A stretch of 59,519 bases of DNA, from NCBI RefSeq assembly GCF_016586165.1, contig NZ_BCPR01000024.1, forward strand, positions 1 through 59,519, read 5' to 3'. The stretch is from Dyella sp. EPa41 (GTDB lineage: Bacteria; Pseudomonadota; Gammaproteobacteria; Xanthomonadales; Rhodanobacteraceae). Shown piece by piece: positions 9,329-24,662 of the stretch. A program made the position numbers and the translations under genes. Each line of letters opens with the position of its first letter. Position 1 is the first letter of the stretch. Below the pieces are notes generated by a model. It did not search any database, was not told the DNA's origin, and saw only the letters and a program-made list of their open reading frames with translations.

Positions 9329-9364
9329 AGACGGCGCTCACCGTGAAAGTCGAAAGATGGCAAG

Positions 9365-9456: not shown

Positions 9457-12400
9457 TTGCCCATGCTCTTGCGTCACCGCCTTGCCGTTCTCGCCTTTGG
9501 CATCTCCACAGCGCTTAGCGCGCATGCGGCCGTTGATCCTTCGTTGTACCAGGATCTGCACTGGCGCCTGATCGGGCCATTTCGCGGTGGTCGTGTGCTG
9601 ACGGTCGCCGGCATTCCTGGAGACAGCCGCCATTTCTATTTTGGTGCGGTCGATGGTGGCGTATGGGCGACCCAGGATGCGGGACGTACCTGGCAGCCGA
9701 TCTTCGACGGGCAACAGGCTGGTTCGATTGGCGCGTTGGCCTTGGCGCCATCCGACCCGAACACGATCTACGTGGGCTCGGGTGAGGCGGACATGCGCTC
9801 GGACATCGCCCATGGCGATGGCATGTACAAATCAACGGATGCCGGCAAGCACTGGACCCATATTGGCCTGGAAGACACACGGCAGATTGCCAGTGTGCTG
9901 GTGGATCCGCGTAACCCCAAGGTGGTGTTCACCGCCGCGCTTGGCCACGCCTATGGTGCCAATGCCGAGCGCGGCGTATTCCGCACTACCGACGGCGGCA
10001 AGCATTGGGACAAGGTGCTGTTCAAGGACGCCGACACTGGCGCGATCGATCTGGCCTTCAAGCCGGGCGACCCTGACACGATCTACGCGGCGCTGTGGCA
10101 AACGCGGCGCCCACCGTGGAGCGTGTATCCACCCTCGAACGGGCCGGGAAGTGGCCTGTATGTATCGCATGACGGCGGCAATCACTGGAGCCAGTTGCAA
10201 GGCAACGGCTTTCCTGCACATCCGGGCCGCATTGGCATCGCGCTGGCACCAAGTCAGCCCAATCGCGTGTATGCCCTGGTCGACGCTGCAGAGGGCGAGG
10301 GCGGTCTGTACCGATCCGAGGACGGCGGCGCGCATTGGACGCACCTCTCCGACGACGGGCGTATCTGGAAGCGCGGTTGGTACTTCTCACGCCTGACGGT
10401 GGATCCGAAAGATGCCGATCGCGTCTACGTGATGAATACGATCGTGTTGCGCTCCGACGACGGCGGCAAGCAGTTTGTCGCCATGAAGGGCGATCCAACC
10501 GGCGACGATTTCCACCAGATGTGGATCGACCCGACCGAGCCGTCCCGACAGATCCTGGGTGTCGATCAGGGGGCCATCGTTACGCTCAACGGCGGCAAGA
10601 CCTGGAGCACTTGGTTCAACCAGCCAACGGCGCAGATCTATCACGTCAGCACGGACAACCGCTTCCCGTACTGGGTTTACGGTGCGCAACAAGATTCCGG
10701 CGCGGTGGCGCTACCAAGCCGTGGCGGCGGTGATGGGATCACCATGGCGCAATTTCACGAGATCACGCCCGGCGGCGAGAGCGGCATGATTGCCCCTGAT
10801 CCCGACGACCCGGACATCGTCTACGGCGGCAATGTCGACAAGCTCGACACCCATAGCGGGCAGACGCGTGACGTCGACCCCACGCTGGCCTATCCCGCCG
10901 CGCACTATCGTGGCGCGTGGACGCTGCCGCTGACGTTCTCCAAGCGTGATACGAAGGTGTTGTACTTCGCCAACCAGCGGTTGTTCCGCACCGCCGACGG
11001 TGGCGATCACTGGACGCCGATCAGCCCCGACTTGACCCGCGAGGATGCCGGCATACCGTCCAATCTCGACGCGGCCACGGCGGCTGACGACAATCACATC
11101 GATGCGCGCCGTGGCGTGATCTACACCATCGCACCTTCACCGCTCAGCGCCAAGGCGCTGTGGGTAGGCACGGACGACGGGCTGGTCTGGCGTAGCGACG
11201 ACGACGGCGAACATTGGCGCCAGGTGACGCCTGACGCGCTGACGCCATGGTCAAAAGTCGGCGGCATCGAACCGTCCCACTACGACGCCAAGGTTGCCTA
11301 TTTGGCCGTTGATCGTCATCGGCTGGACGACGATACGCCCTACATCTACCGCACCCGTGACGGCGGCAGCAGCTGGACGCGCATCGATGCCGGGCTTCCC
11401 GCCGGCAGCTTCGTCAACGTCGTGCGTGAGGATCCCGCCAAGCGTGGTCAGTTGTACGCCGGTACCGAAAAGGGCATCTACGTGTCCTTCGACGATGGCG
11501 CGCATTGGCAACCGCTACAGCAAAACCTGCCGATGACCTCGGTACGCGACATCGACGTGCATGGCAGCGACCTGGTCATCGCCACGCACGGTCGCGGTTT
11601 CTGGATCATGGACAATGTCACGGCGCTGCAGCAGGTCAGCGACGTGCACGCCGGCGCGGTCACCTTGTTCAAGCCGGCCGACGCGATCCGCGTGCGACCG
11701 CCCGGCTTCACCGGCACACCGTTCCCGAAGGACGAGCCGATGGCGGCGAACCCGCCCGACGGTGCCGTCATCGACTACGCACTGCCCAAAGGCATCAAGG
11801 GCAGCGTGACGTTGACCGTGTTCGACGCACAGGGCAACAAAGTGCGCGCCTTCAGTAGCGCCGACGCGGTGACACCGCCGGATGCGAGCAAGCTCAATGC
11901 CGCGCCGGAATGGGTGCCCGAACCGATACGCCTTTCCACGACCGCCGGCATGCATCGCTTCGTGTGGGATCTGCACTATCCGCAGCCAGTAGCCGCCACG
12001 CCGGACCCCGAGAAGGAAAACCTGGGCGTGTGGGCGCCACCCGGCAACTACACCGTTGAGCTCGATGTCGATGGCCGGCGCTATCGACAGCCGTTGCGGC
12101 TGCTTGTCGATCCTCGCGTGAAGGTTTCCGACGCCGCCTTGCAGCGCGAATTTGCGCTGGCACGCAAGGTAGAGCAAGCCGCCGAACAAACGGGAGTGGC
12201 CACGAACGAGGCCACCCACTTGCTCAAGGAGCTGGACGCGCGACAGGCTCACGCTGACAACACGCTGCACACCCAGATCGCGAGCCTGCTGGACAAGACC
12301 AAGGACCTATCCGGCGTCGAGCTGCATCCCGATCCGCGCAACAGCATGGGCGCACCACCCAGGCGCACCGATAGCCTGAGCGCGCTCTCGATCAACCTGG

Positions 12401-12585
12401 GCAAGCTCAAGCAAGCGGTCGATGGTGCCGATGCCGACCCCAGCAAAGATGCCCTGGCGTCCTACGCTGCACTCACGCAGACACTGACCGCCACGCTGGA
12501 TGCGTGGAAGCAGTTGAAGCATGCCGATCTGGCAGCGATCAATGCACAGCTTAAGGCGGCCGGGCAAAAACAGATCGCCTTGTGA
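9457..12585 (+). CDS. Sortilin-like (VPS10) Asp-box beta-propeller secreted protein
   Basis: The 1042-residue product is the third member of the family in this window. A signal peptide (MPMLLRHRLAVLAFG..., or from the ATG at 9463 MLLRHRLAVLAFGISTALSA) precedes DPSLYQDLHWRLIGPFRGGR, the conserved start of the mature protein. Asp boxes include TQDAGRTW, STDAGKHW, TTDGGKHW, SHDGGNHW, SEDGGAHW, TLNGGKTW, SDDDGEHW and TRDGGSSW. The C-terminal 200 residues are helical and lysine/alanine-rich. The region around residues 60-330 matches the protein encoded at 1-2817 more closely than the one at 6095, so the three probably arose by separate duplications. The start at 9457 gives a plausible signal peptide; the ATG at 9463 is an equally good alternative. 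Confidence 0.92.
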   Translation: MPMLLRHRLAVLAFGISTALSAHAAVDPSLYQDLHWRLIGPFRGGRVLTVAGIPGDSRHFYFGAVDGGVWATQDAGRTWQPIFDGQQAGSIGALALAPSDPNTIYVGSGEADMRSDIAHGDGMYKSTDAGKHWTHIGLEDTRQIASVLVDPRNPKVVFTAALGHAYGANAERGVFRTTDGGKHWDKVLFKDADTGAIDLAFKPGDPDTIYAALWQTRRPPWSVYPPSNGPGSGLYVSHDGGNHWSQLQGNGFPAHPGRIGIALAPSQPNRVYALVDAAEGEGGLYRSEDGGAHWTHLSDDGRIWKRGWYFSRLTVDPKDADRVYVMNTIVLRSDDGGKQFVAMKGDPTGDDFHQMWIDPTEPSRQILGVDQGAIVTLNGGKTWSTWFNQPTAQIYHVSTDNRFPYWVYGAQQDSGAVALPSRGGGDGITMAQFHEITPGGESGMIAPDPDDPDIVYGGNVDKLDTHSGQTRDVDPTLAYPAAHYRGAWTLPLTFSKRDTKVLYFANQRLFRTADGGDHWTPISPDLTREDAGIPSNLDAATAADDNHIDARRGVIYTIAPSPLSAKALWVGTDDGLVWRSDDDGEHWRQVTPDALTPWSKVGGIEPSHYDAKVAYLAVDRHRLDDDTPYIYRTRDGGSSWTRIDAGLPAGSFVNVVREDPAKRGQLYAGTEKGIYVSFDDGAHWQPLQQNLPMTSVRDIDVHGSDLVIATHGRGFWIMDNVTALQQVSDVHAGAVTLFKPADAIRVRPPGFTGTPFPKDEPMAANPPDGAVIDYALPKGIKGSVTLTVFDAQGNKVRAFSSADAVTPPDASKLNAAPEWVPEPIRLSTTAGMHRFVWDLHYPQPVAATPDPEKENLGVWAPPGNYTVELDVDGRRYRQPLRLLVDPRVKVSDAALQREFALARKVEQAAEQTGVATNEATHLLKELDARQAHADNTLHTQIASLLDKTKDLSGVELHPDPRNSMGAPPRRTDSLSALSINLGKLKQAVDGADADPSKDALASYAALTQTLTATLDAWKQLKHADLAAINAQLKAAGQKQIAL

Positions 12586-12593
12586 GATACGTT

Positions 12594-12626
12594 ATAGGCC
12601 ACGCGCTTGCACACGCGTGTGCCTAT
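12594..12626 (+). terminator. Hairpin downstream of the third Asp-box gene
   Basis: The inverted repeat ATAGGC-CACGCG with CGCGTG-T-GCCTAT forms a 12 bp stem with one bulge, nine bases after the stop codon. No T-run follows, so Rho-independent termination is only possible, not certain. Confidence 0.5.
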
Positions 12627-13220
12627 AGACTTGATGGGCCGTTCGAATATGTCCTGGGCTCGTCAATAAACGCGAGTGGTTCGTGTCTTTCGGCCTGTGG
12701 CATGGCTCCCACCTTCCTGACCGAAATTCTGTTCGACACCCCGACCACGGCGCACTGTGCGGGTGGTTACACGTTTCGGCTCAGGTCACTGGTTCTGGCG
12801 CAAAGGCCAACCGGCCCAGGGGCCGACGAGCTCGAAGTGGCAAGTGACCTGGTCTTGCTGTCTGACGACAAGAACGACCGGCGCCTCGTGAGGCTAATGT
12901 AGGTTGGCCTACAACCAGCGATCGGGGATAGGCGTCGGGAGACACGTACGCCAGCACACTCACGCGTTATCCACCTTATCGCATGCGATAAGGCGGTCGG
13001 GGACTACAGGCAAGAGGGCGGCTCTTTGCGCGGACACGGCGGGACCCAAGTCGCGGGCAGCCGGACGCAAGAAATCGCATACAGCTAGGCCGCGCACCGG
13101 TCCAGCCCAAGACGGCTCATGAGTTCCAGGGAAAGTTCCCCGCAGCGGCCAGGTGTGGGGCTCATCGAGCACTTGCAACGCCCCCGATCCCGTGACGGTC
13201 TTCACAGCTTCGCCGACACA
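12627..13220. other. Intergenic region with palindromes, no supported gene
   Basis: I see no convincing coding region here; the 106-codon plus-strand frame from 12582 has no family features and overlaps the previous stop. The stretch holds a short hairpin (TGTAGG-TTGG-CCTACA, 12898-12913) and a perfect 20 bp palindrome at 12974-12993 (CCTTATCGCA / TGCGATAAGG). They could be regulator-binding sites upstream of the peptide locus. Confidence 0.4.
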
Positions 13221-13508
13221 AAATCGTAATTTCTTGTGATAGATTGAATTCAGGGTCCGACGCGCGCAGCGCTCGTTGGTGCCGAGTGATTCAAGGAGGA
13301 GCTCGGTGGGAAGGTGTCTTGAGAGACATATTGTTGAATGGAATCTTAGGGAGCTTGCCTCGTCCAAGCTGTGCGTGTGGGTTGTTCCACGCGTGGCCTC
13401 CTAGCGCCGCATTAGCGGCGCGACTCACCTTACTGCCAAAGCATCGCTTTGGGTTGCCTAACGGGCAGCCCATTACGGCCCTTTGCGGCCATCACAAGGA
13501 GAAGAGGC
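13221..13508 (+). promoter_or_regulatory. Structured 5' leader and promoter region of the RiPP locus
   Basis: An AT-richer patch (about 13221-13252) could hold the promoter. It is followed by a run of inverted repeats before the precursor start: GCGCCGC-ATTA-GCGGCGC (13404-13421), CCAAAGC-ATC-GCTTTGG (13436-13452), nested inside CTGCC/GGGCAG (13433-13468), and GGCC-CTTTGC-GGCC (13477-13490). The ribosome binding site AAGGAG lies at about 13496-13501. The hairpins suggest an untranslated leader that affects mRNA stability or attenuation. This is read from the sequence; no function is known. Confidence 0.45.
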
Positions 13509-13718
13509 ATGTCAGTCAGTGAAAAATTGCGTGCTCAGTTTGCGAAGCACGGGTACGAGACGACACCAAGCGAGGCGACCGAACTCACGCGTCAGCAGAT
13601 CGATGGTATTGCGGTCAGCGGCGCCGACTGGTTTGAACAGTTTCATCAGGACAGCTCCGGGCCAGGCCAGGGCGGCTTCTGGAAGGAAATCCTGCATGTT
13701 GGTCAAATGGCGAGCTAA
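13509..13718 (+). CDS. Putative RiPP precursor peptide (radical-SAM modified)
   Basis: The 69-residue peptide begins MSVSEKLRAQFAKHG. I chose the ATG at 13509 because AAGGAGAAGAGGC precedes it; an upstream in-frame ATG at 13449 has no such site. Residues 25-35 (ELTRQQIDGIA) match the ELSxxELxxVA helix of double-glycine leader peptides. This is followed by VSGA at 36-39 instead of a plain GG, then an aromatic-rich segment (DWFEQFHQD, 40-48). A second stretch, GPGQGG (51-56), precedes FWKEILHVGQMAS at the C-terminus. Two leader cleavage points are therefore possible, after residue 39 or after GG56. The Trp and Phe residues at 41, 42, 45, 57 and 58 are candidate sites for radical SAM crosslinking. 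The gene is followed by a strong hairpin and the maturase gene. The identification rests on context and leader pattern, not on a known family. Confidence 0.7.
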   Translation: MSVSEKLRAQFAKHGYETTPSEATELTRQQIDGIAVSGADWFEQFHQDSSGPGQGGFWKEILHVGQMAS

Positions 13719-13738
13719 AGCCAGGTAAACCGTAAATG

Positions 13739-13766
13739 ATGACGCGCGGAATCATCCGCGCGTCAT
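13739..13766 (+). terminator. Strong intercistronic hairpin between precursor and maturase genes
   Basis: ATGACGCGCGGA-ATCA-TCCGCGCGTCAT is a perfect 12 bp stem with a 4-base loop, followed by TTTCC. Stems like this after RiPP precursor genes often give partial termination or protect the short precursor mRNA, so that much more precursor than enzyme is made. That role is inferred here. Confidence 0.7.
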
Positions 13767-13791
13767 TTCCTGCCAAGGGATGGGAGGGGCG

Positions 13792-15024
13792 ATGAGCAAT
13801 CTGCTGGAAACCGTCTATCACGTCGAAGCAGTTATAAAAGTGGCGGCGCGATGCAATATCAACTGTTCGTATTGCTATGTCTTTAACAAAGGGGAGGAGT
13901 CGTTCAAGGATCGCCCCATCAAGATGTCGCGAAGCGTTATGGCGGACACCGCGGCGTACCTGGCCCAAGGCGTACGAGAGCTCGGCGCCAAAAGTGCGAA
14001 TGTGGTTTTTCACGGCGGCGAACCCCTCATGCTTGGCAAGCGCGATTTTGACGCTTTTGCATTCCTCTTGCGCGACGCGCTAACCGGTGTACCCAGCGTG
14101 CGCCTGGGCGTCCAAACAAATGCCATGCTGCTTGACGATGAGTGGATTGATATCTTCGCGCGGCACCGCATCGGCGTGGGTGTTTCATTAGACGGGACGA
14201 GTTACATCAATGATCTTGAGCGAAAGGATCATCGGGGCCGGGGCACATACCGTCGGACCGTGGACGGTCTGAGGCTACTCCAAAAGCACGCCAAGCTCGG
14301 CGCTTTTCCTTGGCCCGGCGTGATTTCCGTCATTCACCCTCTGGCTAGTGGGAAAGCCACCTATCGTCACTTTGTGGATGATCTTGGTGTGCGTGGCATG
14401 ACCTTCCACTTGCCGATGGATACGCATGACAGCTTCGAGAGCCAAGACGTCATGGTCTACGCCCAGTTCCTATGTGACGTGTTCGATGAGTGGGCCAGGG
14501 ACAACAATCGGGACATCTACGTGCGTATGTTCAGCCAGTTGTTGTCGTTCTTTGCGGGAGGCGAACAACAAACCCAAGACGCCTCAGGACACTCGCGGAT
14601 GCAGCACGTCACCATCGAAAGCGACGGAAGTGTTGGCGTGGATGAGTTGAAGCCCACCCGGCTGAACACCGGGTCGTTCAACGTTCGGACTTCCTCGCTC
14701 CGCGACTTTGCCAACTCCCCAGCCTCCGCCCTGCTGCGGGAACTGCCCACACGACTCGCCGATCAATGTCAGCCGTGCGTTTGGCGTAACTACTGCAAGG
14801 GGGGACTGCAGCACGGCGTCCAGGTCAACCGCTGGAGCGACACCAACGGATTCGATAATGCTTCCGTGCTTTGCGAGGGCTTGATGAAGATCTATTCGCA
14901 CGTGGCTCACCACGCGCTGCTTGCCGGGCTACCCGAGCAGCGCATGCTGGACGCTCTCGAGCATCATCCGCTGCAGTTCGCCTCTTCGCGGGGCCTGCAT
15001 CGCCAGGCCTTCCTGAGGGCGTGA
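13792..15024 (+). CDS. Radical SAM/SPASM peptide maturase
   Basis: The 410-residue protein starts at the ATG at 13792, preceded by GGGAGGGG; the ATG at 13780 is less well placed. The radical SAM cluster motif CxxxCxxC is at residues 21-28 (CNINCSYC, followed by YVF), and FHGGEPLM gives the next conserved motif. The C-terminus has a SPASM-type cysteine set (QCQPCVWRNYCKGG and a later LC) that should hold auxiliary iron-sulphur clusters. The family modifies ribosomal peptides by radical chemistry, including three-residue cyclophanes, thioethers and other crosslinks. The N-terminal layout (VAARCNINCSYCYVFN) is closest to cyclophane-forming SPASM maturases of the XyeB/GrrM/FxsB type, but the bond formed here cannot be read from sequence. 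It sits between the precursor and the S9 peptidase gene, with 1 base between its stop and the next start. Confidence 0.92.
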   Translation: MSNLLETVYHVEAVIKVAARCNINCSYCYVFNKGEESFKDRPIKMSRSVMADTAAYLAQGVRELGAKSANVVFHGGEPLMLGKRDFDAFAFLLRDALTGVPSVRLGVQTNAMLLDDEWIDIFARHRIGVGVSLDGTSYINDLERKDHRGRGTYRRTVDGLRLLQKHAKLGAFPWPGVISVIHPLASGKATYRHFVDDLGVRGMTFHLPMDTHDSFESQDVMVYAQFLCDVFDEWARDNNRDIYVRMFSQLLSFFAGGEQQTQDASGHSRMQHVTIESDGSVGVDELKPTRLNTGSFNVRTSSLRDFANSPASALLRELPTRLADQCQPCVWRNYCKGGLQHGVQVNRWSDTNGFDNASVLCEGLMKIYSHVAHHALLAGLPEQRMLDALEHHPLQFASSRGLHRQAFLRA

Positions 15025-15025
15025 G

Positions 15026-16948
15026 ATGAGGACGTTGGGCCTCGCCGTCCTGTGCATCCAAACTGCGGTGTTCTGGTTGGTCATGGTGGCCGGACAGGCT
15101 CGCGCTGGAACCCTCTCGATCGTCGCCGAAGGCGATGTGTATCACCATGTCCGGCTCTCGAAGGACGGTACCGCTCTCACCTACGTCGAGCGAACGGAAC
15201 GGGGCGAAACTCTTCGACGGCGCCGTCTCAAGGATCAAGGGGTCCAAGATGTTGCGGATTGGCCTTCCACCATGATGGGTTATCAGGTGTCGGCGGACGG
15301 CTCGTCGTACCTCTTGTTCGAACGACCGGACGGAGGACGTCCAGTGTTGCTCTATGTTCCTTCACCGGCAGCTCCGCCGCGCCTCATAGACCTACAGGAA
15401 ACGATCGCCGGGTTTGGGGAGGAATCGGGCGACGCGTTTGTCGTTCTCACGCAGGATCGATCGGCCAATCTTCATGTGCAACGCGTTGACTTTGGTTCGG
15501 GGTACTTGGCCATCGGCGCCGAACTAGGCCGATCGCGCGATGTAGGGTTCGATGGTCGCGGATTGCTGCGCGCGATCCGTCAGCCCGACGGCGCGTGGCG
15601 CGGGCTTAATACAGCGATGGGCCCAGGTTACGTGCCAGCCGGGTCGGACTCCGTTGTCAGTGCCTCCAATAACGGCCGGTACCTGTGGTTTCGGAGCATG
15701 GACGAACAGGGATTTCGCATCCTGAAAAGGATCGATCTACGTGGCGACCAACCCGTGCGCGTGGAGCGGATGACTGAGGCCGATATCACGTGGACAACGA
15801 TCAATCCGACGACGGGCGAGGTCGACGCCTATGCGTCAACCAAGGCAGCACCTTATTGGGTGGCAAGCTCTCTGCTGGCCCCGGAGCTCCAGGCCCTTAC
15901 GTCCAGTCTCCGAGCCTTTCCCTATATCGTCTCGCGCTCTCAGGACGATCGTGTGTGGTTGATCGCCTCGATGTCTGCTCGCGAACCGCCCCGCTACTAC
16001 ATCTATCACCGCTCAAGCGGCGAGCTGACCTATATGTTCGCAGCGCGTCCAAGTGAGCGCGACGGCCCCATGCCAGAAACCATGGTGCACTGGCTGGACG
16101 GCGGCGATGGCGTTCGACTTCAGGTGCTCGTGTCCCCGCCATCACATACATGCCGAGTCACCGCGTGTCCGTTTGTGGTGAAGCTACATGGCGGACCGCA
16201 CCGCCAAGATACGTCAACGTTTGATCCGGAAACGTATTGGCTGCAGTCCTTGGGCTTTTGGGTGCTGCGCGTCAACTTTCGCGGATCCACGGGCTTTGGC
16301 GACCAATTCGCCCACGCCAGTAACCGCGAATGGGGCGGAAAAGTCATTGACGATATCGCTATCGCGGTCGACTGGTTCACTCGCCGCTATCACGTTAACC
16401 GGACGGCAGGCATCTCCATGGGAGGTAGCTTTGGAGGCTTTGCAGCCTTGGCGCTCGCAGCCAAACGACCCGACACGGTTGCTTGCAGCGCATCACTCAA
16501 TGGAGGCGGGGACTTGGAGGCTTTTGCGCAACTGCTGCCGCAGCGCCTTCCAGGGATGGCGACTGATATCCACACGGAAGTGGGGGACGTCCATATAGCG
16601 GAAGAGGCAACCTCTATACGAGCACAGTCGCCTATGACCCATGTGGCTCGAATACAGGCGCGCATGCTGGTCGAATATGGTGACAAGGATACGACGTCGG
16701 TGATGGAGGAGTCCTCGAACTTCGCTTTGGCGGCTCGAGGGACCGGAAAATCCGCGCTGGAGGCGATCTATCGCGGTGAAGGCCATGAGCTTGCGGCGCC
16801 GCCCGCCCGCGCGTACCACTACGAACTGTTGAGACACTTCCTCCACACTTGCGTAGATGCTCGTCTTGCGGAACCGTTGCCCTCACCGCCGCCGAACGTA
16901 TCGATCATTGGCAACTCCGCGCGAATTCTCCAAGAGGGACCCCCATGA
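15026..16948 (+). CDS. S9 family prolyl-oligopeptidase-like peptidase, secreted
   Basis: The 640-residue protein has an N-terminal signal sequence or anchor (LGLAVLCIQTAVFWLVMVAGQARA). A beta-propeller follows to about residue 360, then an alpha/beta-hydrolase domain. The oxyanion region VKLHGGPHRQD and the block NFRGSTGFG are typical of S9. The catalytic triad is visible: Ser near residue 464 (GISMGGSFGG), Asp553 (EYGDKDTTS) and His587 (GEGHEL). It should act in the periplasm or on the membrane's outer face, after the peptide has been exported. Likely roles are trimming the exported peptide or destroying it for self-protection. S9 isopeptidases in lasso-peptide loci are a precedent for the latter; both are inferences. 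The start is 1 base after the maturase stop, so the two are translationally coupled. Confidence 0.9.
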   Translation: MRTLGLAVLCIQTAVFWLVMVAGQARAGTLSIVAEGDVYHHVRLSKDGTALTYVERTERGETLRRRRLKDQGVQDVADWPSTMMGYQVSADGSSYLLFERPDGGRPVLLYVPSPAAPPRLIDLQETIAGFGEESGDAFVVLTQDRSANLHVQRVDFGSGYLAIGAELGRSRDVGFDGRGLLRAIRQPDGAWRGLNTAMGPGYVPAGSDSVVSASNNGRYLWFRSMDEQGFRILKRIDLRGDQPVRVERMTEADITWTTINPTTGEVDAYASTKAAPYWVASSLLAPELQALTSSLRAFPYIVSRSQDDRVWLIASMSAREPPRYYIYHRSSGELTYMFAARPSERDGPMPETMVHWLDGGDGVRLQVLVSPPSHTCRVTACPFVVKLHGGPHRQDTSTFDPETYWLQSLGFWVLRVNFRGSTGFGDQFAHASNREWGGKVIDDIAIAVDWFTRRYHVNRTAGISMGGSFGGFAALALAAKRPDTVACSASLNGGGDLEAFAQLLPQRLPGMATDIHTEVGDVHIAEEATSIRAQSPMTHVARIQARMLVEYGDKDTTSVMEESSNFALAARGTGKSALEAIYRGEGHELAAPPARAYHYELLRHFLHTCVDARLAEPLPSPPPNVSIIGNSARILQEGPP

Positions 16949-17031
16949 CGACCTGTCGTACACCTGAGGGCCGCCGACCAGGTCGACGTCTTGTGGGCGA
17001 TGGCCTCCGGATACACCTTAGGAGCGTCGGG

Positions 17032-18036
17032 ATGCGCGTGGTAACGCTATTCCTGATGGCGCTTGCTGCAGTCACGCACAGCGATGAGGTAGTCACTCAA
17101 CGTGAGGTTAAGCTGAGCCCGGATGGCGCTTGGCTTGCCTATATTGAGAACGTTGGCGCGACACCCTATGTGTGGATCGCCCGCGCCCATAACCCGGCTG
17201 ACCGGAGTGCCCTGACGACGTGGGATCGAGGCGCGGTGGCGTATGCATGGGCCGCTGATTCATCGAACATCGTGATGCAACGTCGCCGGGGAGACGGCGA
17301 CTACGAACTCGGGGTGTTTGCGCTCAGCCGCCAGGCCGTGGTTTGGCACCGCGGCTCTCGCAGTGAATCCTTGCAGCGATTCGGCTTGTCCCATGGCGGG
17401 GTGCTCTTTGCTCTTGAGGTGGACGAACAAGGAGTTCGAACCAAGGTCTTTCCTGAGGGCCGGCCCTCGCAGGAGACCGGTCGTGTTGCCGGCGCAGACA
17501 GGGCCATCCTGGATAAAGCAGGCATGCTGGCAGCTTATCGCCTCGGCGGCCAATGGTATTGGACCGCGTGCGGTCACACCCAAGCTCTGGTAGGTCAGCT
17601 GAATGTCCAACCCATCTCGGTGGAAGCCGAAACCCTCTATGCGACCACGCGCAAGGATGGGGTGGGGCGTCAATTGGTCAGGTATCAGGCAGGAACGCCG
17701 ACAGCCGTGGTCATTGCCTCCCTGGGCGACCAATCCGCGTGGGCGCTGGGTCCCGACGGGCTACTCGCGTTTCGACCAGACGCAGACCAAGCGTGGATTG
17801 GTTTGTCGACCAAAGCCCCGCCATTCCTTGCCTTTGCCACCAGTCGGGGGTTTGGCGCATCCGAGTGGATTCAAGTGTCGGCAGACGGCAGGACATGGTT
17901 GCTGAAACTCGACCCGGTCGCGGTCCCGGGCGCGGCTCGCTACGCGGTCTTTCATGGGGAGTCGATGTCGTTTGCGATGCTGTTTGGGCCCACCGGATCC
18001 GCACTGGGCACGTTTGACCCTCTTCGGGGGCCCTGA
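17032..18036 (+). CDS. Secreted propeller protein related to S9 peptidase N-domain, no catalytic domain
   Basis: I chose the ATG at 17032, which has AGGAG 8 bases upstream and yields a signal peptide (MRVVTLFLMALAAVTHSD). An alternative ATG at 16945 overlaps the upstream stop (ATGA) and would add 29 basic residues in front. The 334-residue product starts VVTQREVKLSPDGAWLAYIEN, the standard first blade of S9 propellers, and continues with blade-like repeats (VAYAWAADSSNIVMQRR, SQVSADGRTWLLKLD-type strands). The GxSxGG nucleophile and hydrolase domain are absent: the protein ends at GTFDPLRGP. It may be a binding partner, a substrate-gating subunit or an immunity protein for the exported peptide. 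It lies between the S9 peptidase and HlyD genes. The function is unknown. Confidence 0.75.
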   Translation: MRVVTLFLMALAAVTHSDEVVTQREVKLSPDGAWLAYIENVGATPYVWIARAHNPADRSALTTWDRGAVAYAWAADSSNIVMQRRRGDGDYELGVFALSRQAVVWHRGSRSESLQRFGLSHGGVLFALEVDEQGVRTKVFPEGRPSQETGRVAGADRAILDKAGMLAAYRLGGQWYWTACGHTQALVGQLNVQPISVEAETLYATTRKDGVGRQLVRYQAGTPTAVVIASLGDQSAWALGPDGLLAFRPDADQAWIGLSTKAPPFLAFATSRGFGASEWIQVSADGRTWLLKLDPVAVPGAARYAVFHGESMSFAMLFGPTGSALGTFDPLRGP

Positions 18037-19292
18037 CTATTAGCCGCAATCGCGACTCGATCTTTCGGCCTGAAGCGCTCGCGGCGGCAGCGTCAACGAA
18101 CCTGCCTTCGATCACGTTACGGCCGCCGCCCGTTGGGTGGCTCTTCTGCGGTTTGGCAGGACTCGTGTTGACGCTGATTGGCTCGGTCCTATGCCTTGGC
18201 AGTTACACCAGCTTTGTCAAAGCCGAAGGCGTCCTTGCGCCCAGCCGCGGCCTTCTGCCCGTCCAGGCCATTGGTGCGGGCGTTGTCACCAGGCTCTATG
18301 TAAAGGAGGGCGATCGGGTGGCGAAAGGCGACCCATTGGTCGAAGTCAGCGACGACCAAGTTACCGAGGCGGTCGGATCGATGCGCTCGGCGCTGGCTGA
18401 AGAAATGGCGGCCAAGCTTGCGCGTTTCCGAGACGACCTGGTGGGCGCAGGCGCCGATACAGCGCGTCGCGCATCGGACCTGAAGACGAAGATTGGATTT
18501 CTGGACGAACAGATAGCGCACCTGAGCAAGGAGATGGCGATTCAGCGGCTCCGGGCCGAAAGTGCGATGTCGCTCTACCTGGCTTGGGACGGCGCCAGCC
18601 ATAGCGGTGTGGTATCGCGCGTCCAGATACTGCAACAGCGCGACACCGCGCTTCAGCTGAAAGCGCAGATCGAGGCTTCCGAGCGTTTGATGGCGGACAT
18701 CACTCACCAGCGCAACGAAACCGCCTCGGATCTCGTCGCACTCCCGGCGGCCTTGGCCGAAAAGCGACGCGCCATTGAAAGGAGTATGGCCGACGTTTCC
18801 CAGGCCATGCTCGAAAACGAGGCGCGGCGATCGCGCATTCTGAACGCGCCGTTGGAGGGGGTGGTCGGAAGCGTACTGGTTCATGAGGGTGATGCGATCG
18901 AGGCCCAGGCTCAGACCATGGCGCTCGTTCCCACCGACTCAGAACCCCGCGCTGAACTGTGGCTGCCAACGGAAAGCATCGGTTTTGTGCAGGTTGGCGA
19001 TCAAGTACGCCTTCGCTACGACGCCTTTGCCTATCGGCGTTACGGCCAGGGGCGAGGAGTCGTGGAAGAAGTCAGTCGGACAGCCGTGTCACCGGATCAA
19101 GTGCAGCGACTCTCCGGGTTGAAGGTAACCACGCCCCGTTATCGTGTCGTCACTCGCCTTTCCAAGACCACGGTAACCGCCTTTGGCAAAGAGCAACCGC
19201 TGCTGCCCGGCATGACGCTGCGGGCTCAGATCATCCTGCAGCGGCGACGGCTCATCGAGTGGGCAGCCATGCCATGGCAATCGATTGACTAG
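18033..19292 (+). CDS. HlyD-family periplasmic adaptor of the peptide exporter
   Basis: The frame is open from 18018 to 19292. There is no ATG, GTG or TTG before 18153, yet the upstream codons read SIFRPEAL, the conserved N-terminus of HlyD adaptors in bacteriocin exporters. The start is therefore placed tentatively at CTG 18033, which overlaps the previous stop (CTGA); ATT at 18039 or TTG at 18153 are alternatives. One membrane helix (WLFCGLAGLVLTLIGSVLCLG) is followed by a lipoyl half-motif (GAGVVTRLYVKEGDRVAKGD). A long coiled coil (about residues 120-230), the second lipoyl half (LNAPLEGVVGSVLVHEGD) and a beta-barrel domain complete it. It should bridge the ABC exporter to an outer-membrane channel such as TolC, which is not in the window. 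It is coupled to the propeller gene and lies 27 bp before the exporter gene. Confidence 0.85.
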   Translation: MTISRNRDSIFRPEALAAAASTNLPSITLRPPPVGWLFCGLAGLVLTLIGSVLCLGSYTSFVKAEGVLAPSRGLLPVQAIGAGVVTRLYVKEGDRVAKGDPLVEVSDDQVTEAVGSMRSALAEEMAAKLARFRDDLVGAGADTARRASDLKTKIGFLDEQIAHLSKEMAIQRLRAESAMSLYLAWDGASHSGVVSRVQILQQRDTALQLKAQIEASERLMADITHQRNETASDLVALPAALAEKRRAIERSMADVSQAMLENEARRSRILNAPLEGVVGSVLVHEGDAIEAQAQTMALVPTDSEPRAELWLPTESIGFVQVGDQVRLRYDAFAYRRYGQGRGVVEEVSRTAVSPDQVQRLSGLKVTTPRYRVVTRLSKTTVTAFGKEQPLLPGMTLRAQIILQRRRLIEWAAMPWQSID

Positions 19293-19319
19293 TCGTATGA
19301 ATCTTCCGGTGATTGGACC

Positions 19320-21437
19320 ATGACCAACGCGGTGACGAGCCCCTTTACCCTCGGCCGGCAGGCACGGCTGAAGCTCATTGTTCAAAGTGAAGTCGCGGAG
19401 TGCGCCTTGGCCTGCTTGGCGATGGTCGCCAACTACCATGGCCACCACGTGGATCTTCCAGGATTGCGCCGCCGCTTCGGGACCTCGTTGCAGGGCATGA
19501 AGCTCGGCCGCGTGGTGGATCTTGCAGCAGCGCTCGGATTGAACGCCCGGACTCTTCGGAGCGAGATTGGCTATCTTTCCAAAGCAAAGACGCCGTGCAT
19601 TCTTCATTGGAATTTCAACCATTTCGTCGTATTCAATGGCGTCCGACGGGGCAGGGCAGATATTTTCGACCCGGCCCGAGGCCGGTACTCGCTTTCACTG
19701 GCGGAGCTGAGCAATCATTTCACCGGCCTTCTGGTCGAACTGACCCCGTCGCCGTCTTTTGCTCCCATCAATGATCGGCGGTCCACGACACTTAAGGCCC
19801 TGATCGGTCCTATTTCAGGACTTCGGCGAACCCTCGCGCAAGTCCTGATTCTCGCGCTCGCCATTGAGCTGCTTGCGCTGGCGCTTCCATTCCAGATGCA
19901 ATTGGTTCTAGACCAGGTCATTCTGTCGAATGACCGATCTTTCCTCGCCGTCACGATCGCCGCCTTTCTCGTGCTGGCTGCGTGCCAGTCTGGACTGACC
20001 CTCATCCGGGGCTGGCTCATCAGCTGGTTCGGCGTCTCGCTCAGCACGCAATGGACGAACAATCTCTTCGGTCACCTCATCAAACTTCCGATCGACTTCT
20101 TTACGAAGCGCCATCTAGGCGACATCGTGTCGCGCTTTTCCTCCATCAAAACCGTGCAAGGAACACTGACCGGCGCCTTTATCGAGGCCCTGCTGAACGG
20201 CCTCATGAGCATTTTCAGTCTGCTGATACTGTGGGTTTACAGTCCGCCATTAACCCTGGTTGTCCTGGCCTGCTTCGCGCTATATGCAACTCTCCGGTTA
20301 CTATCTTATCGGCGGCTGCACGCGATACAGGAGGAGCAACTCGTATACGCCGCGCGTCAACAATCCGAGCTGATGGAATCGATTCGTGGTATTCAGCCGA
20401 TCAAGCTCGCGAACAAGGAAAGGTTGCGCTGGACTCGTATGGCCAATGCGACCCATGAGGCGTCTGACCGGGACATGCGGGCCCAGCAGTTGGCGATTAC
20501 GTTTGGTGCGATTAGTCAGGGGCTATTCGCCGCGCAGCGGACCCTGGTGCTTGCACTGGGTGCGTTGATGGCCATGCGCGATGCATTTTCAGTGGGCATG
20601 CTCGTTGCCTTCCTAACCTATGCCGACCAATTCACACTCAAGTCGAGCGGTTTTATCGACAAATTTGTGGGGTTGAAGTTGCTGAAGCTGCACGGTGAAC
20701 GCATCGGCGAAATCGCCCTGCAGGAGTCGGAGCAAGGACTAAACGACACCAGCATGAAACGACACTCGATCGGGCGCATCGAGTTGCGCGGAGTGAGCTT
20801 CCGTTATGAAAAGGATGGTCCATTCATCTTGCATAACGTCTCATTTTCCATCGAGCCGGGCGAATCCGTTGCCATCGTCGGTAAGTCGGGGTGTGGCAAG
20901 TCCACCTTGGCAAAGATCGTGCTCGGACTGCTAACGCCCAGCAGCGGCATCATCTTGGTGGATGGTGTCGAGCTAAGGACCTATGGCCTCGCCCGTTACC
21001 GCGCTGCGGTAGCCGCGGTGATGCAGGACGATCAGCTGTTTGCTGGCTCGATCTTGGAGAACATCGCGTTCTTTGACACCGAGCCCTGTGTGTCGGAGGT
21101 CGAACAGTGCGCTAGAGATGCGGCCGTTCACGAGGATATTGCCCGATTCCCTATGGGGTACGAGACGCTCGTGGGAGACATGGGGTCGTCCTTATCGGGT
21201 GGGCAAAAGCAGCGTGTGTTACTCGCCAGGGCGCTCTATCAAAAGGCCTCACTACTCGTGCTGGACGAGGCGACCAGTCACTTGGACGCCGACAGCGAGC
21301 GTCAGGTGAACCAAAATATTGGGACCTTGGGGCGCACCAAGTTGGTGATCGCGCATCGCCAAGAGACGGTCAATCAATGCGATCGCGTCCTTTCGCTGGA
21401 GTCGTTGTCCTCCCCGTCGCGACCGGTGCACGCGTAA
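19320..21437 (+). CDS. Peptidase-containing ABC exporter (C39 domain, PCAT)
   Basis: The 705-residue protein has an N-terminal C39 peptidase domain. Its catalytic Cys28 lies in VQSEVAECALACLAM, His101 in HWNFNH and Asp117 in FDPARG, so the protease looks active. The residue after Cys is Ala rather than the usual Gly. Six membrane helices follow (about residues 170-450). The nucleotide-binding domain has Walker A GKSGCGKST, signature LSGGQKQR and Walker B LLVLDEATSHLD. Transporters of this class cut double-glycine-type leaders and export the core peptide in one step. This fits the GG-like sites in the precursor at 13509. It works with the HlyD adaptor encoded just upstream and ends the operon. 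Confidence 0.94.
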   Translation: MTNAVTSPFTLGRQARLKLIVQSEVAECALACLAMVANYHGHHVDLPGLRRRFGTSLQGMKLGRVVDLAAALGLNARTLRSEIGYLSKAKTPCILHWNFNHFVVFNGVRRGRADIFDPARGRYSLSLAELSNHFTGLLVELTPSPSFAPINDRRSTTLKALIGPISGLRRTLAQVLILALAIELLALALPFQMQLVLDQVILSNDRSFLAVTIAAFLVLAACQSGLTLIRGWLISWFGVSLSTQWTNNLFGHLIKLPIDFFTKRHLGDIVSRFSSIKTVQGTLTGAFIEALLNGLMSIFSLLILWVYSPPLTLVVLACFALYATLRLLSYRRLHAIQEEQLVYAARQQSELMESIRGIQPIKLANKERLRWTRMANATHEASDRDMRAQQLAITFGAISQGLFAAQRTLVLALGALMAMRDAFSVGMLVAFLTYADQFTLKSSGFIDKFVGLKLLKLHGERIGEIALQESEQGLNDTSMKRHSIGRIELRGVSFRYEKDGPFILHNVSFSIEPGESVAIVGKSGCGKSTLAKIVLGLLTPSSGIILVDGVELRTYGLARYRAAVAAVMQDDQLFAGSILENIAFFDTEPCVSEVEQCARDAAVHEDIARFPMGYETLVGDMGSSLSGGQKQRVLLARALYQKASLLVLDEATSHLDADSERQVNQNIGTLGRTKLVIAHRQETVNQCDRVLSLESLSSPSRPVHA

Positions 21438-21780
21438 TGGCACATTGTTATGGTCGCAGCTACCGCAGTGAGCTCCTGCAGCGCGTCGACGACACGCAAG
21501 GGAAGGGTGGTCACGTCAGGCATCGTTAGTCATCCGCTGGCCTCCGCCGAGGCGGCGATAACCATGATAGCGAATAAGTGCCATTATTTGCCATTTCATG
21601 CGACGGTATATATTGAGTATATTCAATGTTTTACATAAATTTCTTCATAAGATAGCACATGACTCCTCGCGTAATGCCGGCAGCGCCTCGATCGGCCCGA
21701 CGCGGCATCGCCTCGCACCGTCTCGAACGCTGAGATCGCGATGCGCGACGCTGCCCGGCAATTGCAATGGAGGGGTGGAC
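21438..21780. other. AT-rich intergenic region after the exporter
   Basis: About 340 bp without a supported gene. The part from 21560 to 21660 is clearly AT-rich (TATATATTGAGTATATTCAA and similar) and is a likely promoter area for the small membrane protein gene at 21781. I see no clear terminator after the exporter. Confidence 0.4.
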
Positions 21781-22119
21781 ATGTCTTACGTCGATCGCAT
21801 GTGCGTACGCCTGCTGTGGCCAACCCTGCTGCCGCTGGCGGGGTCAGTCCTGGCGGCGGTTATGGCGCAAGCGCTTTCGAACCTGCCGGCACAGTTGGGT
21901 GGTGTACCCGCCTGGCCCGAGCTACCCGGCCTCATCGTCGAGGGCGGGGCGCTCGTCAGCGCCGCCTATGGCGCGACCCAACTCGTCCGGCTGCTGCGCT
22001 GGCGCCAAGGCCGCACGGACTCGTGCTATGTATGCACCTGCTTGTTGGGGCCTGAACGCCAAGGGCGCCGAGGTGAATATCGACGCTGCCTGGGCTGCGG
22101 CATGACTCATTCCATCTAA
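21781..22119 (+). CDS. Small two-helix membrane protein with C-terminal zinc-ribbon-like motif
   Basis: The 112-residue product begins MSYVDRMCVRLLWP; the ATG at 21781 follows GGAGGGG. Two hydrophobic segments (LLPLAGSVLAAVMAQAL and GLIVEGGALVSAAYGATQLV) are followed by a cytosolic-looking tail. The tail holds CYVCTCLLGPERQGR then YRRCLGC, a CxxCxC and CxxC set that could bind zinc. A clear paralogue lies at 41363 in this window with the same start (MSY), length and cysteine pattern. The function is unknown; I know of no named family. The gene is 10 bp upstream of another small gene at 22130 and probably co-transcribed with it. Confidence 0.7.
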   Translation: MSYVDRMCVRLLWPTLLPLAGSVLAAVMAQALSNLPAQLGGVPAWPELPGLIVEGGALVSAAYGATQLVRLLRWRQGRTDSCYVCTCLLGPERQGRRGEYRRCLGCGMTHSI

Positions 22120-22129
22120 GGAGCAAGGT

Positions 22130-22360
22130 ATGGCGACCAAGCTACCGCGCGGACTGGACGGGCGTACCCGCGACCAGCACTCGCCGAAGGCTGGCGAAAT
22201 CCGCCAAAAGCGCAGCGACACCCTGGTGTCCACGCTGCGGAACGAATATGGCGCGAATTTCGCTCCTGGCATTCGCGCCGACGCCACACTGGGCACGGTG
22301 CGCGAGCGCACTGGCAAAAGTCTGCACCAGCTGGTGCGGGACATACCTAAGACGAAGTGA
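22130..22360 (+). CDS. Small basic hypothetical protein
   Basis: The 76-residue protein starts MATKLPRGLDGRTRDQHS, with a good ribosome binding site (AAGGAGCAAGGT) before the ATG. It is rich in Arg, Lys and Asp, has no signal or membrane segment, and includes STLRNEYGANFAPGIRADATLGTVRERTG, which looks like a folded helical domain. Similar small proteins occur on proteobacterial chromosomes and elements without a known role. It follows the zinc-ribbon-like membrane protein gene by 10 bp. Confidence 0.65.
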   Translation: MATKLPRGLDGRTRDQHSPKAGEIRQKRSDTLVSTLRNEYGANFAPGIRADATLGTVRERTGKSLHQLVRDIPKTK

Positions 22361-22367
22361 CTTTGTG

Positions 22368-22733
22368 CTAAGCATAGGCGCCCGATTGCATCTGACGAAG
22401 CAGTTGGACGAGAAGCTCGCAACCTGCGTCGGAATCCAGGTAGTCAATGGGAAGCTTTTTGCCCAACGCAGGAACGGGATGATGAAGCCAGTCGTCCAAC
22501 CAGCGGGCGGCATCGAACCCAGCGGGCTCGCCACTTTCCGAGACGATCACTGTGACGATCACTGTGACGAGCCCCAGCAGCTCTTGGTACCGGTCACTAG
22601 AGGACATGTCGATCACCGCAGTCTCAGCTTCACGCTTGAGAGCAATGCTAGACCAGTCTGCACGGGCCGGGAATCTGTTGGGCCGACGCGACCACGCCAG
22701 TGCACGAGAAACTAAAAAGACCATCGTCCCCAA
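22368..22733 (-). CDS. MbcA/ParS/Xre toxin-binding domain (DUF2384-like) protein, probable orphan antitoxin
   Basis: The C-terminal half (FDAARWLDDWLHHPVPALGK, then PIDYLDSDAGCELL and a terminal MQSGAYA) matches the toxin-binding domain of Xre/MbcA/ParS antitoxins. In that domain W-L, P-ALGG-P-L-T-G and GAYA residues are conserved. The usual second Gly of ALGG is Lys here. The N-terminal half is short and lacks a recognisable helix-turn-helix, so the ATG at 22733 is uncertain. A short tandem repeat (CACTGTGACGAT twice, about 22545-22568) gives the odd run VTVIVTVIV inside the protein. No RES-type toxin gene follows, so the antitoxin looks orphaned or decayed. Confidence 0.55.
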   Translation of the reverse strand: MGTMVFLVSRALAWSRRPNRFPARADWSSIALKREAETAVIDMSSSDRYQELLGLVTVIVTVIVSESGEPAGFDAARWLDDWLHHPVPALGKKLPIDYLDSDAGCELLVQLLRQMQSGAYA

Positions 22734-23007
22734 GAGTGAACACCAACATCTGCGGAGCTCTCAAAGATGTACACCTTGGATTGCGTCGAGCGAAATGTGC
22801 GCACTCAAATCTGCGCGTAGTGGACATCAGTACTGCGCAGTCAGGCCACTCATCAGTGCGCTCAAGACGCGGGAGTCGAAGTTCCACTGCGGAGAACATG
22901 AGCCAAAGCTGCGCCAGCGGCGAGAATCATCCATAATTTCGCATTCTTGGTAATTACGGGACCTGTTGCGCTCGGAGAGCACCCTAAAATTCAGTGTTTT
23001 CCGATGG
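22734..23007. other. Intergenic, no supported gene
   Basis: Open frames here on both strands are short and arginine/serine-rich, and I recognise nothing in them. The stretch leads into the degenerate repeat copy at 23008. Confidence 0.35.
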
Positions 23008-23224
23008 AATTGGCCAAGAAATCCGTTGTGCCACCCGGAACAGCTCAGCGTTGCGCAACGATTTGAGCATGCCGCAACACTTCAGCGGGCTGTTGCGCGA
23101 TTTCAGGCTTGACCGTGTTGCGTGTCGCCAAGGAAGCCGCAGTGGCCTGCGCCCCTTGCAACTGATTTGCTCGCGGCGCTCGGCGCAAGTTGGCATTTCG
23201 ACCAGCGATTAGGGCAAGTTATCG
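23008..23224 (-). pseudogene. Degenerate copy (R1) of the small gene/repeat at 35.5 kb
   Basis: Read on the minus strand this segment gives TRNTVKPEIAQQPAEVLRHAQ, then a stop, then AVPGGTTDFLAN and another stop. It matches by eye the protein encoded at 35299-35592 and its upstream frame (TRNTVLLEIAQQPTDVLRHD..., AIPGGATAFLAN). The DNA match extends from the shared block AATTGGCCAAGAA to the shared end CAGCGATTAGG, so this is a broken copy of a repeated unit. Confidence 0.6.
23008..23224. repeat. Dispersed repeat, copy R1
   Basis: About 216 bp, similar in order and spacing to 35487-35702 and in the same orientation. Shared blocks include AATTGGCCAAGAA, GGGCTGTTGCGCGATTTCA, GTGTTGCGTGTCG and CAGCGATTAGG. 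I judge identity at roughly two-thirds to three-quarters by eye, not by computed alignment. Confidence 0.6.
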
Positions 23225-23277
23225 AGGGTATGGCGCGCGTCTATCTTCACTTACGCAACGTTACACCCATTGGCCGT

Positions 23278-23487
23278 TCAATACCGCCTCTGCAGACCTA
23301 GCGCGCGGCGGTATTCATCGAGCTGCTGCTCCAGAGTCGGATCTTGAGGCTCGCCCTTCGGCCGGAACCATCTGGGCATATCGGCGTGAGCGGTGCCGTG
23401 GCTGGTGATCTTGGTGGGCATCCCGAGGATCCATGCTTGTGCGTGGCGAATTCGTACGGCCACGCCTTGTGGGCCGGCATCTACCAC
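23278..23487 (-). CDS. Small hypothetical protein or gene fragment
   Basis: A 69-codon frame with a GTG start encodes VAVRIRHAQAWILGMPTKIT and ends EQQLDEYRRALGLQRRY. Its composition is protein-like, unlike the arginine/serine-rich shadows around it. I recognise no family. There is no strong ribosome binding site, and the piece could be the end of a decayed gene, as an in-frame stop lies a few codons upstream. Confidence 0.35.
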   Translation of the reverse strand: MVDAGPQGVAVRIRHAQAWILGMPTKITSHGTAHADMPRWFRPKGEPQDPTLEQQLDEYRRALGLQRRY

Positions 23488-23696
23488 ACATCTTGCCTAT
23501 CCGCTTGCCGCGTTGGTGGCGATGCTGTTGGTCCTTCAGTTAGTGCTACGCGCAGATATTCATTTCTATTGAGATTAGGGCGCAGGTCTGGATCGATTAG
23601 GCTATAGCGGACGGTCGCCCAGCCGCACTCCAGCGGTTTACTCTGAATCACCATAATGCATGACAGCTATCGCACGCCTAATGCGCGTGTCCGCGT

Positions 23697-24662
23697 CTAT
23701 GGCGTTTGCATCGCATGTTGCTTGCGATACTCGGCCGGCGAGACACCTACATGCTTCGTGAAGGCTCGACGCAAAGTATCAACATTGGCGAAGCCGCACT
23801 TGGACGCCACCAGTTTCGGGGTGTCATGGCCGTTTTCAAGCAGCGTCCGTGCTGCAGCAATGCGCGCAGTTTCCACCCATGCTGCGGGTGTGATGCCCAC
23901 TTCGGCATGAAATAGGCGCGCGAAATGCCGGGGGCTCAGACCGGTATGCTCAGCGAGGCTGGCAATGCTGTGGTTCAGTTCGGGTCTCGCAGCAACCCAG
24001 CGCTGCACTTCTTGTAGGACCGAGCGCCCCGTGGGGCGTGTCTCGCCTTTGCGACTGAACTGAAGCTGCCCACCTGGGCGCTTGAAATACATGACCAACT
24101 GGCTCGCAACACGTTTGGCAATGTCACGGCCCAGGTCTTCTTCCACAAGGGCGAGGGCCAAGTCCAGGCCCGCGGTGACACCGGCGGCGGTGCGGAGTTT
24201 GCCGTCCCGCACGTAGAGTGCATCTTCATCGATCCGAAGGGATGGGAACGCACGGGCTAAGTCGTCTACCGCTGCCCAATGCGTCGTGACTCGCCTTCCG
24301 TCGAGCAAACCCGTGGCTGCAAGCATGAAAGCGCCGGTGCAGATCGAGCCATAGCGCCGGCTTCGTGCGGCGGTTGCGCGGAGCCATTGCAGGACGTGAG
24401 AGGACAGTGCGATCTCCGCAGCGTTTGGGGCTCCTGCCACCAATAACGTATCGACGCGCTCGGCACTCTCGCCGGCAACCATATCGGGGAGCAGGCGCGC
24501 GCCGGACGAACTGTGGATGGGACCGTGCTGGCTGCCAACGACTTTCATCGCATAAAACTTCTTGCCGGCCTCAACGTTCGCTTGAGCAAAAACATCAAGT
24601 GGTCCCGAGACGTCGAGGAGTTGGACGCCCGGAAGGGCAACAACGGCGATTGTTTTGGCCAT
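23697..24662 (-). CDS. GlxA-family transcriptional regulator (DJ-1/PfpI domain plus AraC HTH)
   Basis: I place the start at the ATG at 24662 (MAKTIAVVALPGVQLLDVSG), since the preceding in-frame codons do not resemble the family. The 321-residue protein has an N-terminal DJ-1/PfpI-like domain (residues 1-180; LLVAGAP and SICTGAFMLAATGLLDGRRVTTHW with the nucleophile-position Cys). A C-terminal AraC-type DNA-binding domain follows, with two helix-turn-helices (SIASLAEHTGLSPRHFARLF and KLVASKCGFANVDTLRRAFTKHVGVSPAEYR). Such proteins are usually sensors/activators. It is divergent from the HD-domain gene at 24787, its likely target. An intact active-site Cys does not prove enzyme activity. Confidence 0.92.
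   Translation of the reverse strand: MAKTIAVVALPGVQLLDVSGPLDVFAQANVEAGKKFYAMKVVGSQHGPIHSSSGARLLPDMVAGESAERVDTLLVAGAPNAAEIALSSHVLQWLRATAARSRRYGSICTGAFMLAATGLLDGRRVTTHWAAVDDLARAFPSLRIDEDALYVRDGKLRTAAGVTAGLDLALALVEEDLGRDIAKRVASQLVMYFKRPGGQLQFSRKGETRPTGRSVLQEVQRWVAARPELNHSIASLAEHTGLSPRHFARLFHAEVGITPAAWVETARIAAARTLLENGHDTPKLVASKCGFANVDTLRRAFTKHVGVSPAEYRKQHAMQTP

Follow-up and report, generated by a model that had tools for sequence, protein, structure and literature searches.

A predicted triceptide-type RiPP cluster in Dyella sp. EPa41 with an S9 peptidase and a propeller-only companion

Triceptide enzymes, including XncB, OscB, MscB and YhhB, join the aromatic ring of a residue i to the beta-carbon of residue i+2 (PMC11002830). 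Among their products, the xenorceptides have been reported as blockers of BamA in Gram-negative bacteria (PMC12971899). In other classes of ribosomally synthesized and post-translationally modified peptides (RiPPs), peptidases that act on the modified precursor have been described. Namely, the S9 peptidase FlaP efficiently cut only fully modified FlaA, MfuP, an M61 peptidase whose pathway includes a C39 exporter, cut within the modified core (both PMC10885120), and the prolyl oligopeptidase (POP) of the myxarylin pathway likely acted after cross-linking (PMC12951456). Here we describe a cluster of six genes in a stretch of 59,519 nucleotides from Dyella sp. EPa41 (contig NZ_BCPR01000024.1), which is referred to below as the window. 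We considered it quite probable that this was a triceptide-type RiPP cluster with a new maturase branch, in which cyclophanes would be formed under guidance of a leader, the peptide would leave through a C39 exporter, and a periplasmic S9 peptidase would cut it together with a propeller-only partner.

Gene content and maturase of the cluster

The six open reading frames (ORFs) lay on the plus strand between 13509 and 21437, in the order precursor, maturase, S9 peptidase, propeller-only protein, HlyD and C39-ABC exporter. The features were as follows:

13509..13718, plus strand: precursor peptide of 69 residues (ORF; AGGAG ribosome site by eye)
13509-13625, plus strand: precursor leader, residues 1-39; the rest is the predicted core DWFEQFHQDSSGPGQGGFWKEILHVGQMAS, if the cut follows GA
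13629..13649, plus strand: candidate aromatic-X-X cyclophane triplets W41-F42-E43 and F45-H46-Q47 (sequence; putative crosslinks)
13680..13688, plus strand: third candidate triplet, W58-K59-E60 or F57-W58-K59 (sequence; putative crosslink)
13738..13767, plus strand: perfect 13-bp hairpin (z -3.56; 0 of 200 shuffles as stable)
13792..15024, plus strand: radical S-adenosylmethionine (SAM)/SPASM peptide maturase (ORF opens at 13780; better ribosome site at 13792 by eye)
15026..16948, plus strand: serine peptidase of the S9 (prolyl oligopeptidase) family (PF00326, 8.6e-30; signal peptide by eye, ...GQARA-G; S9 structures in the PDB)
17032..18036, plus strand: propeller-only protein, the propeller half of the same S9 family (ATG start; signal-like N terminus by eye)
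18033..19292, plus strand: HlyD-type membrane fusion protein (TIGR01843, 2.2e-38, below the curated cut-off; PF13437 above its cut-off)
19320..21437, plus strand: C39 peptidase-containing ATP-binding cassette (ABC) exporter, or PCAT (PF03412, 9.4e-32; PF00664; PF00005)

Judged by its sequence, the maturase was a new branch within the known triceptide (three-residue cyclophane) class and not the founder of an undescribed class, since its best NCBIfam matches all stayed below the curated cut-offs. It reached 273 bits against XyeB (TIGR04496, E 3.2e-81, cut-off 450), 255.5 against YhhB (NF041707, cut-off 445) and 237.8 against FxsB (TIGR04269, cut-off 370). It was also the single XyeB-type match in its own genome, where the score was 272.9 bits. 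The best PDB sequence match was the ChlB structure 9gm3 (E 8.7e-41), and ChlB is a multiple-cyclophane synthase according to the title of a reference. Thus, homology to the radical SAM/SPASM enzymes of three-residue cyclophanes was found by NCBIfam, by the ChlB structure and by the maturase tree described below. The CxxxCxxC motif was present as C25-x3-C29-x2-C32, and four C-terminal cysteines of the SPASM region (C330, C333, C339, C365) were invariant in all eight aligned maturases.

The precursor was identified with a leader profile built from its counterparts in the related loci L021, L022, L023, L104 and L032, with the window excluded. These five were picked by hand, four for the closeness of their maturases and L032 for the similar look of its leader. 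Among 1020 window frames (stop-to-stop, at least 35 residues), the window precursor ranked first with E 1.8e-4, and the next frame had E 1.4, which supported the precursor as more than a chance frame. The leaders of the nearest loci also resembled that of the window by eye. Comparisons of single precursor sequences did not reach significance (for the window precursor, the best E among the matches listed was 0.27), and no NCBIfam or Pfam family matched the precursor up to E 0.1. The core contained the triplets WFE, FHQ and WKE, such triplets being common by chance, and its W41-x3-F45 spacing matched the W-x3-F spacing (WVNAF) of the Xye-type cores of L041, L042 and L052, the last of which reads WVNAFGNWSKSL after GG. 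A double-glycine-like site was present as GA, with a hydrophobic register that pointed two residues earlier, and the C39 cut site was uncertain between positions after S37 and after A39. Our guess is that, after a cut behind S37, a dipeptidyl S9 peptidase could then take off Gly-Ala.

The hairpin between precursor and maturase genes had strong counterparts in the same gap of all four relatives that were folded (L021, L023, L024 and L104, with L023 and L024 near-copies). In a wider set of 21 gaps, the helix length was equalled by no more than 5 out of 100 letter shuffles in 11 gaps, and by more in the other 10. The hairpin probably attenuates or protects, so that the precursor mRNA would exceed the maturase mRNA. 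A promoter scan gave no sites, and Rfam gave no match at gathering scores.

The presumed S9 triad S468/D555/H587 was invariant in all four S9 sequences (two of them near-copies). The frame at 15026-16948 combined a propeller with an alpha/beta-hydrolase carrying Ser-Asp-His, whereas that at 17032-18036 lacked the catalytic half. An S9 profile that included the window S9 matched the propeller-only protein with E 4.3e-11. In pairwise comparison, the latter was 33% identical over 75 residues to the N-terminal portion of the S9 peptidase of L021 (E 2e-10) and weakly similar to the S9 peptidase of its own cluster (22%, E 0.006). Read against the S9 sequences, it reached the last blade and ended near the expected start of a hydrolase domain, and it was the only match in its own genome. 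Pfam PD40 stayed below its cut-off, and a PDB sequence search found nothing up to E 1. Since the AlphaFold model was poor (mean predicted local distance difference test score of 52, from a five-row alignment), the propeller assignment rests on sequence. In NCBIfam, this protein matched best, though weakly, the model of the lasso isopeptidase Atxe2 (E 1.7e-4; 20.5 bits against a cut-off of 400), and the window S9 peptidase gave no match to the lasso isopeptidase model up to E 0.1.

The export genes comprised a C39 domain fused to an ABC transporter, plus HlyD, as expected for PCAT export. The C39 domain was complete in Pfam, and by eye it held Cys in QSEVAEC, His in NHFVV and Asp in FDP, whose roles in the domain we assumed. 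The HlyD frame had no ATG, GTG or TTG before 18153, and its likely homologous sequence started by eye near 18060; thus, it likely uses a rarer start at the propeller stop, either CTG at 18033 or ATT at 18039.

A preliminary description of this DNA had already proposed six consecutive genes of one strand in this order, a maturase with CxxxCxxC and SPASM cysteines, an exporter with an intact C39 protease and a signal-peptide S9 peptidase with a propeller-only partner, and all of these were borne out. Its span of 13221..21437 was correct at the exporter end, while at 13221 there was upstream DNA only. It had also called the locus an undescribed RiPP locus. A make-modify-export locus in which the S9 peptidase has a propeller-only partner was supported; an undescribed class was not, the maturase falling among triceptide enzymes.

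In the pathway that we propose, the maturase would bind the leader and join ring carbons of Trp41, Phe45 and Trp58 to the beta-carbons of Glu43, Gln47 and Glu60 (i+2), each with the loss of two hydrogens. The exporter would cut the leader off near S37-G38-A39 and send the peptide out via a TolC encoded elsewhere. The periplasmic S9 peptidase may then make the last cut or cuts on the cross-linked core, at the remaining N-terminal residues, at the ILHVGQMAS tail or after the single core proline Pro52, with the propeller-only protein as its non-catalytic partner. The product probably acts on competitors. The chemistry, the cleavage sites and the activity are predictions of this model, and the sequence did not decide between trimming and inactivation of the product by the S9 peptidase.

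The peptidase position in related loci

From a contig scan (best 80 of 370 relatives, at least 586 stretches), 78 named loci were kept. The order precursor, maturase, S9 peptidase, HlyD, C39 was found in three of them: L021 (Nitrospirillum iridis), L023 (Niveispirillum lacus) and L024 (an Azospirillum metagenome-assembled genome, MAG). None of the three had a propeller-only gene between S9 and HlyD. The preliminary description had known of no described RiPP class with this gene order. In the contig scan, five of the six genes recurred in order in these Azospirillaceae loci, the propeller-only gene being absent. Fic-domain genes were observed beside the S9-type clusters (L021, 8814-9626, and L023, 16612-17454, by Pfam Fic; L024, 7546-8388, by likeness to L023).

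The maturase was 41-43% identical to those of L021, L023 and L024. A quick tree without bootstrap (85 rows, of which 83 differed; L029 excluded for a stop within its matched stretch) placed it with these three and L022 at a Shimodaira-Hasegawa-like approximate likelihood ratio (SH-aLRT) of 98. Within this set, the window maturase paired with L022, an M61-like locus (87), and the three S9-type Azospirillaceae formed a separate set (96).

Pfam was run on ten proteins behind or near maturases. It assigned S9 to L021, M61 to L022 (above the cut-off) and M61/M1 to L047 and L071 (below the cut-off); L029, L041, L052, L064 and L089 had aspartic proteases, and L051 gave no match. From such members, three peptidase profiles (S9, M61-like and retropepsin-like aspartic) were built and run on the frames of 91 sources. 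The S9 profile matched L021, L023, L024 and the window. The M61-like profile matched L016, L019, L022, L028, L033, L037, L040, L047, L071, L082, L086 and L104. The aspartic profile matched L015, L029, L032, L041, L042, L052, L055, L057, L062, L064, L074, L089, L094, L097 and L107, the last being the same locus as L097 by sequence. Left uncounted were a weak match in L030 (3.3e-4) and off-position S9 matches in L045 and L061, the latter on the opposite strand and 7.5 kb away. A peptidase of one of the three unrelated kinds was thus present in 25 of the 78 named loci, a count that leans upward since the M61-like and aspartic profiles drew on members already known from that position or its vicinity. 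In 21 of the 25, the peptidase frame lay at most 700 bases downstream of the maturase match; it was further away in L032, L071 and L097 and on the other strand in L040. HExxH was seen in eight of nine examined metallo frames, and D-T/S-G in all 13 aspartic frames; L028 had no Pfam match. On the maturase tree, where "none" stands for no profile match and not for proven absence, the three types needed five changes among themselves.

We tentatively suggest, as a possibility that we would not call likely, that an exported-peptidase position behind Xye-group maturases was filled independently by S9, M61-like and retropepsin-like enzymes, which would cleave the cross-linked core once it has been exported. 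For the window, this would mean that the S9 peptidase acts on a peptide carrying undescribed Trp-Glu and Phe-Gln cyclophanes, and that its propeller paralogue, itself devoid of a catalytic domain, serves as a subunit for specificity or restraint. The literature searched on these peptidase kinds together with radical SAM enzymes and RiPPs, which did not include the two main triceptide papers and was available in part, contained no description of this position. In Sulfitobacter, S9 peptidase genes were listed among RiPP core genes, with no triceptide link in the available text (PMC11278168).

Two further observations concern other loci. In L045 (a Gammaproteobacteria MAG), positions 1764-11122 carried a TonB receptor and two S9 peptidases, then a candidate precursor in which GGNFVSAPP is repeated, and after it a cyclophane-type maturase; one of the two peptidases presumably ends like a lasso isopeptidase. 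Additionally, cyclophane-type maturases were found in L030, L035, L040, L082 and L086, from records titled Wolbachia, Chlamydiales, Rickettsiaceae, Rickettsia and Rickettsiales, some of them with candidate small precursors or M61-like neighbours.

Genomic setting and alternative explanations

The cluster lay within a segment whose flanks matched the same-genus genome G049 at two distant places:

12642..23206, no strand: accessory segment containing the cluster

The left flank (9297-12641) matched at 94% and the right flank (23207-31288) at 99.95%. Their counterparts in G049 were separated by about 90 kb, and neither of the two G049 stretches fetched matched the accessory segment. G049 also gave no maturase match at 1e-20. 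In G051, the single fetched stretch matched the left flank. With its own genome included, maturase matches were found in 12 of 233 genomes of the family at 1e-20 (none of the others above 40% identity), in 5 of 369 sampled from the class at 1e-40 and in 5 of 398 sampled from the phylum at 1e-60. In a search for closer maturases among the relatives of G864, 1 of 60 genomes of the family matched at 1e-60 and 4 of 385 of the class at 1e-80. Close maturases (1e-80) occurred in 3 of 82 genomes of the G1275 family, to which L021, L023 and L024 seem to belong. The cluster looked acquired or rarely kept.

Three observations were made on the surrounding DNA. The 8 kb of 23207-31288 that were 99.95% identical to G049, against 94% for the left flank, would fit a recent transfer or contamination of the G049 assembly (listed contamination 9). 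Two large Sortilin/BNR-type repeat proteins were divergently transcribed from 31-2769 (minus strand) and 9457-12585 (plus strand), with relatives of both near each other in G049 and G051. The guanine-plus-cytosine content was about 0.50-0.53 at 41000-47000 versus about 0.57-0.65 over the first 40 kb, possibly marking a foreign stretch.

A number of points weigh against a triceptide cluster finished by an exported peptidase. The maturase fell short of the YhhB and FxsB cut-offs as well as that of XyeB. A diverse profile of 17 precursors again ranked the window precursor first, at E 0.49 only. The leader had two extra residues before SGA in the precursor alignment. Moreover, L26, I31 and I34 would occupy the hydrophobic positions -12, -7 and -4 of the leader cleavage rule (PMC10885120) only after a cut behind S37, not behind GA. 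In the core, Glu or Gln as the third residue would be unusual, being outside the acceptors named in a review (Arg, Asn, Asp, Ser and Ala; PMC11002830), and the cores of the nearest relatives (L021-L024) lacked the W-x3-F spacing. Cleavage specific for proline at Pro52 was rejected as a shared rule, because the cores of L021, L023 and L024 had no proline. Since the window paired with L022 and not with the S9-type loci, the S9 peptidase was gained twice or replaced once on this tree. Finally, the remaining 53 of the 78 named loci had no counted match to the three profiles, so the peptidase was not universal.

Lasso isopeptidases destroy their finished peptide, and the S9 enzyme may likewise degrade the product to protect or feed the producer, with the propeller-only protein as a peptide-binding decoy. 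The weak Atxe2 match of the latter would fit such a role, as would L045 with its TonB receptor and S9 pair directly before the candidate precursor and maturase. The window itself encodes a TonB receptor barrel (2990-4240, opposite strand), one of 49 matches in the genome; it lay outside the accessory segment, about 9 kb from the six genes, which include no TonB receptor. The position behind the maturase is shared with aspartic and metallo peptidases, and this fits processing as well. We held degradation or self-protection to be a serious but less likely alternative. It was unlikely that the maturase makes another linkage, such as a four-residue aromatic-X-X-X ring, an ether or a beta-hydroxylation. 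The cores of L021, L023 and L024 are indeed four-residue FDLS or FDLT repeats, Aro-X-X-Asn repeats have been described for a radical SAM group (PMC9062424), and DarE forms an ether crosslink (PMC9055067). However, the models of DynA (129.6 bits, cut-off 450), DarW (109.9) and DarE (86.4) scored far below XyeB, YhhB and FxsB.

Decay of the cluster, with the propeller-only gene as a broken S9 duplicate and a leader out of register, would account for the missing catalytic domain, the two-residue leader insertion and the lack of a standard HlyD start. The frames were all long and open, the presumed catalytic residues were retained, and the propeller reached its last blade and had a signal-like start of its own, which made this explanation quite improbable. 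We gave hardly any credence to an anaerobic sulfatase maturase beside a small chance ORF: that model scored 171.1 bits, but this was 102 bits under XyeB and below its own cut-off of 349.45, no sulfatase was among the six genes, and the leader profile test supported the precursor.

Comparison with known systems

Among the systems close to the triceptide-type cluster that we favour were the Xye triceptides or xenorceptides (XyeB and XncB, from Xenorhabdus and relatives), with which it shared the maturase family by profile, a candidate double-glycine-like leader end and HlyD with C39. Moreover, the Xenorhabdus loci analysed here have a signal-like peptidase gene behind the maturase. In contrast to these systems, the window maturase reached 273 bits where 450 are required, an S9 enzyme stood in place of the retropepsin-like aspartic one, there was an extra propeller-only gene, and the core had a linker, a tail and Glu or Gln at the third position. 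The S9-type clusters of L021, L023 and L024 were alike in gene order, leader and the hairpin in the precursor-maturase gap, but they had FDLS or FDLT cores and no propeller-only gene, and a Fic gene was near L021 and L023.

The cyclophane synthases ChlB, YhhB and FxsB belong to the same enzyme group, ChlB giving the best PDB sequence match, although the window maturase scored under the cut-offs of YhhB and FxsB. ChlB, YhhB and FxsB have other precursors and neighbours than the window cluster. FlaP, the myxarylin POP and MfuP provided examples of S9 or M61 peptidases acting on modified precursors, and MfuP stands beside a C39 exporter; however, they belong to other RiPP classes (lanthipeptide and biarylitide pathways), and a further difference is the signal peptide of the window S9. 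Lasso isopeptidases of the Atxe2 type are likewise S9 enzymes with a propeller in a RiPP cluster, and their model weakly matched the propeller-only protein, but among the six genes, to which that search was confined, there was no lasso cyclase (macrolactam synthetase) or leader peptidase B.

The finishing of triceptides after export has apparently been little described, and in a small set of clusters three unrelated peptidases may perform this one step. To the known systems, the window would add a new maturase branch, a propeller-only companion of the S9 peptidase and candidate acceptor residues that are unusual.

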